Source of the DNA: Deltaproteobacteria bacterium
Lineage (GTDB): Bacteria; Desulfobacterota; Syntrophia; Syntrophales; JAFGIO01
Assembly: GCA_016929555.1 (NCBI GenBank)
Contig: JAFGIO010000271.1
Coordinates: forward strand, 1 to 39,886
DNA: 39,886 nt
Direction: 5' to 3'
Shown one piece after another: positions 15,541-18,842 of this stretch (the first letter of the stretch is position 1; every line of letters begins with the position of its first letter). The notes beneath the pieces were generated by a model. It ran no database searches. It saw nothing but the letters and a program-made list of their open reading frames with translations, and was not told the DNA's origin. Made by a program: the position numbers and the translations under genes.

Positions 15541-16725
15541 TCAGCTTCCCCTGCCCGGCGGCACGAGATCGATGACGGTGATCTCCGGCGGCGCCAGGAA
15601 GCGCATGGGAGGCCCCCAGGTCCCCGTTCCCCGGCTCACGTACAGGGCGCCGTGGCCGGGCAGGCGGAAAAATCCGGTGTGGTAGGGAAAGAACAGCCGC
15701 GTGATCAGGCTGAAGGGGAAGATCTGCCCCTTGTGGGTATGCCCCGAAAGCTGCAGATCGAAGGCGCCCAGGCTCTCTTTCCGGAGAATGGGCTGGTGTT
15801 TGAGCAGAATCGTGAAGTGCTGCCGGGGCAGGCCATCGAGGATTTCCCGTTCCGGAGGCGACCCCCTCAGGCCGAAGTCCCGCCCCGTCGGATCATCGAC
15901 GCCGGCGATATTGACCAACCCCGCCACGGTCATCCCTTCCCCCCGCAGGACGGTGAACCCCGCCTGGCGCGTGAAGGCCAGCGCCTGGGGCAGGCCGGCG
16001 TAGAATTCGTGATTCCCCGTGACGGCGTACTTGCCGTATCTCGGCGCCACTTCCCGAAGCACCTCCCCCAGATTCCGGAGGCTGTCAATCTGGCCGTCGA
16101 CCAGATCCCCCGTTGACAGAAGGATATCCGGCTGCGCCTTCCGGACGGTCTCGACGATGTTCCGCAGGCGTTCTTCTCCGACGATAAGCCCCACATGGAC
16201 GTCGGAGATCTGGACCAGCCGGATTCTTTCAACCGCGGCAGGGATCTTCGGGCTTTCCAGGACGATCCGCTCCGTCCGGATCTGTATCGCCTCGTAGGCG
16301 GCATAGGCGGCAATCCCCAGGGAACAGACCAGCGGCAGGATCAGGGCCGTCAAGGGCGACGGCAGCAGTGGGGTGAAGTCCCTCTGCAGAGCATACGCGG
16401 CACCGGACAGGATCAGTCGGTAGAGATCCAGGCAGAGGGAGACGGAAAAGAAGAGAAAAAGCACCCCCATCCACAGATAGCCGACCCAGGAACAGAGGCA
16501 GGCCGGCATCTCGAAGCCGTATCTTTCGGCGAAACGGACAATGATCGGCGCCATCATCAACAGCAGGAGCGAGAGGATAAGCGCCGTCGCCTGGAGCTTC
16601 GACGGATGAAGGGCCGCCCGGATCTTGAGATAGGCGTAAGAATGAACGCCGCCGTAAATGAGAAAGAAGACCAGCAGAAACAGGACCATGGCAAGCAGTC
16701 GGGACATTGTGCGTTCTAACCCCAT
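15541..16725 (-). CDS. membrane-anchored metallophosphoesterase
   Basis: QISDVHVGLIVG, STGDLVDG, GNHEFYAG, LSGHTHKGQIFPF motifs after several hydrophobic segments. Confidence 0.9.
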   Translation of the reverse strand: MGLERTMSRLLAMVLFLLVFFLIYGGVHSYAYLKIRAALHPSKLQATALILSLLLLMMAPIIVRFAERYGFEMPACLCSWVGYLWMGVLFLFFSVSLCLDLYRLILSGAAYALQRDFTPLLPSPLTALILPLVCSLGIAAYAAYEAIQIRTERIVLESPKIPAAVERIRLVQISDVHVGLIVGEERLRNIVETVRKAQPDILLSTGDLVDGQIDSLRNLGEVLREVAPRYGKYAVTGNHEFYAGLPQALAFTRQAGFTVLRGEGMTVAGLVNIAGVDDPTGRDFGLRGSPPEREILDGLPRQHFTILLKHQPILRKESLGAFDLQLSGHTHKGQIFPFSLITRLFFPYHTGFFRLPGHGALYVSRGTGTWGPPMRFLAPPEITVIDLVPPGRGS

Positions 16726-17453
16726 AGCATTTCGGCAAAAAGACGATAGATCCGCTTCATCCGGTCGCGGACCTCGGTTCTCAGAAGGGCCAGCTCAAGG
16801 TCCGCCGGGGGCGCCATTTCGGGAATATCCCGACCCTCGATGCCCAGGTCGAAGCCCGTGTTCCCGACCACGCTGCCCAGCGATACGCCCGGCAGGAGGC
16901 TTTCCAGAACGATGCGCTTGCGTTCCCCGTCGAACCGCATGACGCACAGGGGGGTCACGGCATGGCTCATGCCGCCCCGCCGCCAGGGGGAAGGGACCCC
17001 TTCGTCGAAGGCCGCGGCATTGACGAAATCGACCCTGGGAACGAAGACCCGCCGGTCGTGGTTCATGGAGAAAAGGATGGTCCGCCCGCTGAGGGCGTAG
17101 AGCATGTTGGAACCGGCGCCGCCGGGAAGCCGGAGGTCGGGCTTCGCATAGTCGCCGATCGCCGAAAGATTGATGCTCCCGCATTGGTCGATCTGGATGC
17201 CCGAGAGAAAGAAGACATCCACCTTCCCCCTCTGGGCGAGGCCGAAGAGTTCGTAGAGCCCGTCGGAGATGCGGCTATCGGGATCGCCGTATATCAGGGG
17301 AACGATGTCAGGCCCGTGGGTGCGGCAGGCCAGGAGGCAGCCGGCGGCCGGCACCGGCGACAGGGTGCCCGTGGCCACCGTTTCGCCGTTTCGGAGGAGC
17401 CGGGAAACGGCGACGATCATCATTTCCAGGGGGTGGATCTCTTTACTTACCAT
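16716..17453 (-). CDS. CoA-transferase subunit B (glutaconate CoA-transferase-like)
   Basis: Subunit-B-like sequence (SGIQIDQCGSINLSAIGDYAKPDLRLPGGAGSN); overlaps subunit A by 11 bp. Confidence 0.8.
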   Translation of the reverse strand: MVSKEIHPLEMMIVAVSRLLRNGETVATGTLSPVPAAGCLLACRTHGPDIVPLIYGDPDSRISDGLYELFGLAQRGKVDVFFLSGIQIDQCGSINLSAIGDYAKPDLRLPGGAGSNMLYALSGRTILFSMNHDRRVFVPRVDFVNAAAFDEGVPSPWRRGGMSHAVTPLCVMRFDGERKRIVLESLLPGVSLGSVVGNTGFDLGIEGRDIPEMAPPADLELALLRTEVRDRMKRIYRLFAEMLWG

Positions 17454-18297
17454 AGCCCGCGAACCCCACTTTCCGGAGATAGGCGCTATGGTCCTCCGGT
17501 TCGAAGATGTAATGATCGAGGTAGCCCCGGAAGGCCGCCTCGTCCTTCGCGGCCGCGAGATATGTCCGGATATGCTCTCCGTCCACGGGATAACGTCCGG
17601 GGCACGCCGTTGGATGGGCACCGCCTGAAGCCTGGACCACCGCGTCGACATGGAGAGGCGCCACATAGACCTCCTGCAGGCCGGGAAGGACCTCATCGGG
17701 TTCCAGGATCTCCTCGACGACGGCGATGGTCGTACGCGCCGCCATGGCCAGCAGCCGGTCCTCGCGCGAGGAAACCGTCGTAAGGCCGCCGAAACGGTCG
17801 CCCTTCAGCGCGTGCACTACGGCCACATCGGGGATGATCGGCGGCACCACCACGTATTCCTTCCCGGAATAGGGGTCCCGGACGGTCCTGAGATCGTCTC
17901 GGATCTTCATGTAATCGGACCCCAAAAAGCCGATCACGGGAATGAAGGGCAGGTTCTGGGCCCCAGCCTGGAGCCCCAGCAGCAGGGCGGGTCAGATCGT
18001 CTCCCGGAGCCGGAGATCGCCGCGCTCCGCTTTGCGCCGGAAATTCGGGGCCAGGCCGAACTCGTCCATGACGATCTGGGGAAACTGAACCGTCTCCACG
18101 CACCCGGCCCCGATGAGCAGATCGGCCACGTAGCCTCCCGTCAGAACCGGCGTCAGGGTGAGCCCCCGGACGCCCCGGCGGATGATTTCCCTCACGACGG
18201 GCATGGGATTCATGGCCATGCCGGCGCCGACGCCCAGATGGCTGCCATCCTGAACGAAACGGGCCGCCTCGGCCGCGCTCATGCGCTTGTCTTTCAT
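17443..18297 (-). CDS. CoA-transferase subunit A with in-frame TGA at 17992-17994 (recoded, nonsense-mutated or sequencing error)
   Basis: ORFs 17992..18297 and 17443..17937 are in the same frame, separated only by one TGA; reading through gives ...LRLRETI[TGA]PALLLGLQAGAQNLPFIPVIGFLGSDYMK... Confidence 0.75.
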
Positions 18298-18311
18298 CTT
18301 TCAAAACCGCC

Positions 18312-18842
18312 TTAGAGAAGCCCCTTGAGTTCCGTGGAGAAAACCTCGTAGGCCCTGCCGTCGAAGAGCACGAAGCGGATCAGCTCGATGTCGCTGTGCT
18401 CATGAAGGTAATCGATCGCCGCCGTCAGCGCGATCCTGGCCGCTTCCTCCAGGGGATAGCCGTAGACGCCCGTGCTGATCGCCGGGAAGGCGACGCTCTT
18501 GAGGCCTTTCGCCGAGGCGAGCTTCAGGCTTTCGACATGGGCGCTACGGAGCAGGGCCGCCTCGTTTCTCGCGCCGCCGCGGTAGATGGGGCCCACGGTG
18601 TGGATGACATGTTTCGCCTTGAGATTGCCCCCCGTGGTGATGACGGCCTGACCCGTCGGGCATCCCCCGATCTTCCGGCACTCCGCCATGATCGCCGGGC
18701 CGCCGGCCCTGTGGATGGCGCCGTCCACCCCGGCTCCCCCGGCAAGCCTTTCGTTGGCGGCGTTCACGATGGCGTCCGTTGATTCCTCCGTGATGTCGCC
18801 GATGACGAGTGATAAGACGGACTTACCGATGTTGACTTCCAT
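18312..18842 (-). CDS. macrodomain protein (ADP-ribose/O-acetyl-ADP-ribose type)
   Basis: GDITEESTDAIVNAANERLAGGAGVDGAIHRAGG...AISTGVYGYPLEEAA. Confidence 0.93.
   Translation of the reverse strand: MEVNIGKSVLSLVIGDITEESTDAIVNAANERLAGGAGVDGAIHRAGGPAIMAECRKIGGCPTGQAVITTGGNLKAKHVIHTVGPIYRGGARNEAALLRSAHVESLKLASAKGLKSVAFPAISTGVYGYPLEEAARIALTAAIDYLHEHSDIELIRFVLFDGRAYEVFSTELKGLL

Follow-up and report, generated by a model that had tools for sequence, protein, structure and literature searches.

The in-frame TGA that interrupts the gene for subunit A of a CoA-transferase-like enzyme in a Syntrophales genome can be read as a selenocysteine (Sec) codon with a probability that we estimate at roughly 0.97, and the full-length product is very likely a selenoprotein that holds Sec at a catalytic position. 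The first-pass annotation of the window, which is the whole stretch of 39,886 nucleotides analyzed here, had left Sec, a nonsense mutation, and an error side by side; Sec is now selected because the TGA column is conserved in two phyla, three homologs have Cys at that column, a covarying hairpin follows on the 3′ side, and selA, selB, and selD are present in the genome. The proteins appear to form a new selenoprotein family, computationally well supported, of hitherto unrecognized selenium enzymes of acyl-CoA metabolism. The features of the window that bear on this reading are listed below.

17443..18297, minus strand: gene for subunit A of the putative Sec-containing CoA-transferase-like enzyme; 284 codons, with codon 102 for Sec, then the stop (PF01144, AF2 model, Foldseek)
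17992..17994, minus strand: UGA codon 102, very probably read as Sec; the column is TGA in all 51 genomes read by codon and Cys in three homologs; its counterpart in IpdA is Glu105
17958..17976, minus strand: SECIS-like hairpin (compensatory changes, RNAalifold, −13.1 kcal/mol, codon constraint)
16716..17453, minus strand: gene for subunit B, intact; 11-base overlap with the end of the subunit A gene; Tyr at the position of GctB Glu54
15541..16725, minus strand: calcineurin-like phosphoesterase gene, which adjoins the A-B genes in several Syntrophales loci and probably lies outside the A-B enzyme

The interrupted gene and its product

Direct reading of the minus strand from 18297 to 17446 gives a single frame of 284 codons whose sole interruption is the TGA at 17994..17992, codon 102, in the context RETI-TGA-PALLLGLQAGAQNLPFIPV, and the open reading frames at 17992..18297 and 17443..17937 share that frame. 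The earlier claim that this TGA is the only break in a CoA-transferase subunit A is confirmed by this reading, as is that of an intact, overlapping subunit B. Read-through subunit A belongs to PF01144 (E 2e-22), both subunits exceed the gathering score of that family, and subunit A aligns over almost its full length with IpdA, AibA, and GctA. The AF2 model of the read-through protein (pLDDT 90.1, pTM 0.90) places Sec102 as the first residue of a helix that spans residues 102-113. Directly upstream of the gene, the frame at 18312-18842 on the minus strand likely encodes a macro-domain (ADP-ribose binding) protein, as judged by eye from the sequence, and no link between the two genes was seen. 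An Rfam scan of positions 17700-18300 returned nothing relevant; its only hit, to SNORD35, lies on the other strand and was dismissed as chance.

Conservation of the TGA column

A search of 60 relatives gave eight homologs, 44-78% identical, and every one of them has a single TGA. The gene with TGA was found in 15 of the 155 genomes of the same class by a whole-class search, and 21 more carriers came from 395 genomes of the same phylum. A scan of genome_contigs added four carriers, all MAGs of Candidatus Rokuibacteriota, and in the Rokuibacteriota set TGA was found in 19 of 95 genomes, 15 of them codon-checked; for G197, G233, G246, and G247 it was reported outside the codon-level reading. Wherever codons were read (51/51 genomes, from Syntrophales, other members of the phylum, and Rokuibacteriota), the same column is TGA, and neither TAA nor TAG occurs there in any genome, while the identity between proteins of the clade falls to about 45%. 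Three homologs have Cys at the column, from Nitrospinota (L075, TGT), from Methylococcaceae (L077, TGC), and from the genome G593 (L167, TGT). The alignment of homologs that had been proposed as a check thus shows TGA in 51 genomes and Cys in three, which supports recoding. Outside the clade Asn predominates, and some groups have Glu or His; L094, L095, and L169, all with Glu, are IpdA-like. No relatives were found in a scan of viral_contigs.

The supposition that the TGA is a nonsense mutation in a decaying pseudogene, or a sequencing or assembly error, draws on the sight of a frame that is whole apart from one stop, in a draft genome, and almost all of the data compared here are from draft genomes. 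However, only TGA is found, at the same site, in 51 separately assembled genomes from two phyla, and both flanking frames and subunit B are intact, so that a mutation or an error has a negligible probability. A second TGA or TAG in L142-L145, considered as a further Sec codon, is the normal end of the gene.

In the phylogenetic tree, which was built by a quick method with SH-aLRT support only, the sequences with Sec and those with Cys group together (support 82), and the Cys homolog from Nitrospinota stands beside those of Rokuibacteriota within the Sec clade (support 89). In the gene of this homolog (L075:5001-5837), the CTC and CAG codons of the hairpin are kept and the stem is broken by a C-C clash, and its genome still has selB and tRNA-Sec. 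This looks like a recent change from Sec to Cys with a decaying SECIS, a reading that we make only tentatively because the support in the tree is moderate.

A SECIS-like hairpin behind the UGA codon

A stem of eight base pairs, GGGCUCCA-GGC-UGGGGCCC, can form 15 nt behind the UGA codon from arms at 17969-17976 and 17958-17965 with a loop at 17966-17968, and its energy is −13.1 kcal/mol. The hairpin would act as a bacterial SECIS, at which SelB and Sec-tRNA decode UGA to give full-length subunit A of 284 amino acids. In a set of 18 sequences, 95.1% of the cells are paired, against 89.6% after shuffling and just 26-54% in slid registers, and compensatory double changes were found at three pairs: G-C to A-U in seven sequences at pair 21/35, C-G to G-U in one sequence at pair 22/34, and G-C to C-G in one sequence at pair 20/36. 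The covariation score was reached by none of 500 shuffles, and RNAalifold independently recovered seven of the eight stem pairs. When 50 distinct sequences are compared, pairing holds in 285 of the 300 core cells, against a mean of 258 and a maximum of 268 under the null; the sequences are related by descent, and the counts are not independent. The first-pass annotation had pointed to short CTGG/CCAG or CTGGG/CCCAG stems downstream; these are not the conserved ones, and the comparison supports the hairpin at 17958-17976 in their place.

Because the hairpin lies within coding sequence, its conservation is partly driven by the protein, and the codon null gives P values of 0.0025-0.08 per sequence. 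The codon for Gly112 is GGA or GGG in all 50 sequences, where 46% is expected from the genes as a whole, and that for Leu109 is CTC in 42 of 43, where 38% is expected; by this measure, codon choice in the hairpin region is constrained beyond what the protein needs. In the most distant group (L163-L166 and L168), only five of the eight pairs form in the hairpin register. When 42 nt of the window sequence are folded by themselves, the structure of minimum energy differs from the conserved hairpin.

Selenocysteine machinery and other ways to read the UGA

The genome check for selA, selB, selC, and selD that had been advised succeeded in part: selA (595 bits), selB (370 bits), and selD (378 bits) are all present above their cut-offs, and selC, the gene for tRNA-Sec, was not found in this MAG, which is 88% complete and in which scoring covered just a part of the candidates. 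Matches to RF01852 below the cut-off in this genome were rejected as tRNA-Sec, being other tRNAs (Ser, Leu, Arg, and Asp). Its selD (L050, G000:C160:15559-16485) has one in-frame TGA itself and appears to encode a Sec-containing selenophosphate synthetase. Among the carriers tested, this genome counted, tRNA-Sec was found in 10 of 12 from the same class and in 4 of 4 from Rokuibacteriota, 14 of 16 together, and selB in 14 of 15 and 4 of 4, respectively. The presence of selB is permissive and not specific because the gene is near-universal in the class (140/155 genomes). The Methylococcaceae genome with the Cys homolog (L077; G160) has neither selB nor tRNA-Sec. In one carrier, G126, tRNA-Sec is present and selB was not found in an assembly 87% complete, probably through its incompleteness.

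That tRNA-Sec was not found in this MAG might instead suggest that UGA is decoded as a residue other than Sec or passed by unspecific read-through, or that it is a conserved regulatory stop, in which case the GTG start at 17937, after the stop and within the downstream reading frame, would give a second half-protein. These possibilities have to contend with Cys at the same column in three homologs, with a covarying hairpin at the distance usual for a bacterial SECIS, with the presence of selA, selB, and selD in the genome, and with tRNA-Sec in 14 of the 16 carriers tested. Moreover, another residue or read-through is at odds with the carriers L142-L144, where TGA is the true stop of the same gene, and the downstream half made from GTG 17937 would be without the conserved helix. 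We consider all of them very improbable, if slightly less so than a mutation or an error, and adhere to Sec as the residue encoded by the UGA.

Probable position of Sec in the active site and the likely reaction

In the alignment, Sec102 falls on the residue of IpdA for which 6co6 has Glu and 6coj, by its title an E105A mutant, has Ala. From the work on IpdAB, we take Glu105 of IpdA to be the catalytic residue. Sec102 would take the place of this Glu at the start of the helix and might act as a catalytic nucleophile or as an acid/base. Subunits A and B would form a pair like those of glutaconate CoA-transferase, IpdAB, and AibAB. In subunit B, the glutamate that bears CoA in true transferases seems to have been lost: where GctB has Glu54, the aligned Sec systems have Tyr, Leu, or Ile, subunit B of the Cys system L077 likewise has no Glu, and the neighboring, ordinary CoA-transferase pair A′B′ in the same cluster of G022 keeps it. 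In IpdAB the same Glu is absent (Gly57 of the β subunit), and the enzyme is a ring hydrolase that was found to transfer no CoA (PMC5380842), while AibAB, which has Cys56 at the position of GctB Glu54, is a decarboxylase (PMC7756340).

Because subunit B is without the catalytic Glu, like those of the non-transferases IpdAB and AibAB, and Sec102 is found at the column of Glu105, we favor, with some reserve, an acyl-CoA hydrolase or C-C lyase of the IpdAB/AibAB type with a catalytic Sec over a CoA-transferase or a redox enzyme. As a doubtful extension of this idea, the nucleophilic Sec102 might form a covalent selenoester (acyl-Se-enzyme) with the acyl-CoA during cleavage of the thioester or of a C-C bond. 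If that were true, Sec would have a non-redox use in acyl-CoA catabolism, and the selenoester would stand in for the glutamate chemistry known from the CoA-transferase superfamily.

An ordinary CoA-transferase, in which the inserted Sec replaces an Asn of the α subunit lining the active site, would agree with membership in PF01144, with Asn as the usual residue at the Sec column in ordinary relatives, and with the genes for acyl-CoA ligases or acyl-CoA dehydrogenases that lie close to some of the copies. It is nevertheless unlikely, given that subunit B has Tyr, Leu, or Ile and not the Glu on which the acyl-enzyme anhydride is formed and that IpdAB and AibAB, likewise without this Glu, are not transferases (PMC5380842; PMC7756340). 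We give a similarly low chance to a redox or metal-binding role of Sec on the CoA-transferase fold, for example in peroxide or disulfide chemistry, which would be in line with the view that most known selenoproteins are redox enzymes (PMC13188914). No CxxU or UxxC motif was found near Sec, the next residue being usually Pro or Gly, no conserved gene for a redox partner stands beside A-B, and some relatives have Glu at the Sec column.

Gene neighborhood

Subunits A and B are the only genes conserved across all 31 loci compared, and the substrate is not readable from the gene neighbors in these loci. The phosphoesterase, Rieske/ABC genes, acyl-CoA ligase/dehydrogenase genes, and a cluster of A′B′ and an amidohydrolase were each found in subsets of them. 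In G002, G022, G006, and the distant G514, the Sec pair comes after an additional CoA-transferase pair and an amidohydrolase, and acyl-CoA dehydrogenases or ligases are near other Sec pairs. These neighbors suggest acyl-CoA catabolism, and the substrate is probably a catabolic acyl-CoA, as judged by homology. The cluster in which this additional CoA-transferase pair and an Amidohydro_2 protein accompany Sec A-B (L055, L056, L057, and L180), seen in three Syntrophales genomes and in G514 from another group of the phylum, is possibly a catabolic operon; a sigma-54 regulator adjoins it in L056 and L057.

Significance and comparison with known systems

A review of May 2026 counts 119 families and subfamilies of prokaryotic selenoproteins, with no CoA-transferase among them (PMC13188914). 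In NCBIfam 20.0, the protein of the window passes no model cut-off, and the families matched by 14 aligned members include no Sec model. A full-text search of the literature, limited to open papers, returned no report of a Sec-containing CoA-transferase-like family, and the papers with terms for both selenocysteine and CoA-transferase appeared unrelated in the parts available. Where an annotation pipeline has no Sec model that fits, the gene would probably be broken in two or labeled a pseudogene. A redox function is assumed for the majority of known selenoproteins (PMC13188914), and here, in two phyla or more, Sec has the likely catalytic position on a fold of acyl-CoA enzymes. With this family, non-redox catalysis by selenium can be tested directly, and the metabolism of uncultured syntrophs and Rokuibacteriota would gain a step that depends on selenium.

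The present system shares with the known families of bacterial selenoproteins a UGA codon for Sec, a hairpin on the 3′ side, and homologs with Cys, but none of the families listed in Table 1 of the review has the CoA-transferase fold (PMC13188914). The likeness to glutaconate CoA-transferase, GctAB (1poi), lies in PF01144 and the organization of the subunits, whereas the CoA-carrying Glu54 of GctB is missing here and the residue of GctA at the Sec column is neither Sec nor Cys. AibA/AibB (5mzw), the 3-methylglutaconyl-CoA decarboxylase, has the same fold and two-subunit layout, has the Glu of subunit B replaced, and is likewise not a transferase; its special residue, Cys56, is in subunit B, while the chalcogen residue of the present system is in subunit A and subunit B has Tyr, Leu, or Ile. 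The best Foldseek match (TM 0.88) is IpdAB, the hydrolase that cleaves the ring of COCHEA-CoA, with structures from R. jostii (6co6, 6co9, and 6coj) and M. tuberculosis (6con). Its steroid-ring gene set (ipdC, echA20, and ipdF) was not recognized among the neighbor genes examined here. The two systems nonetheless have in common two subunits, a subunit B without the catalytic Glu, and a residue of subunit A in the catalytic position at the same column, which, at about 29% identity, is Glu105 in IpdA and Sec, or Cys, in the family described here.
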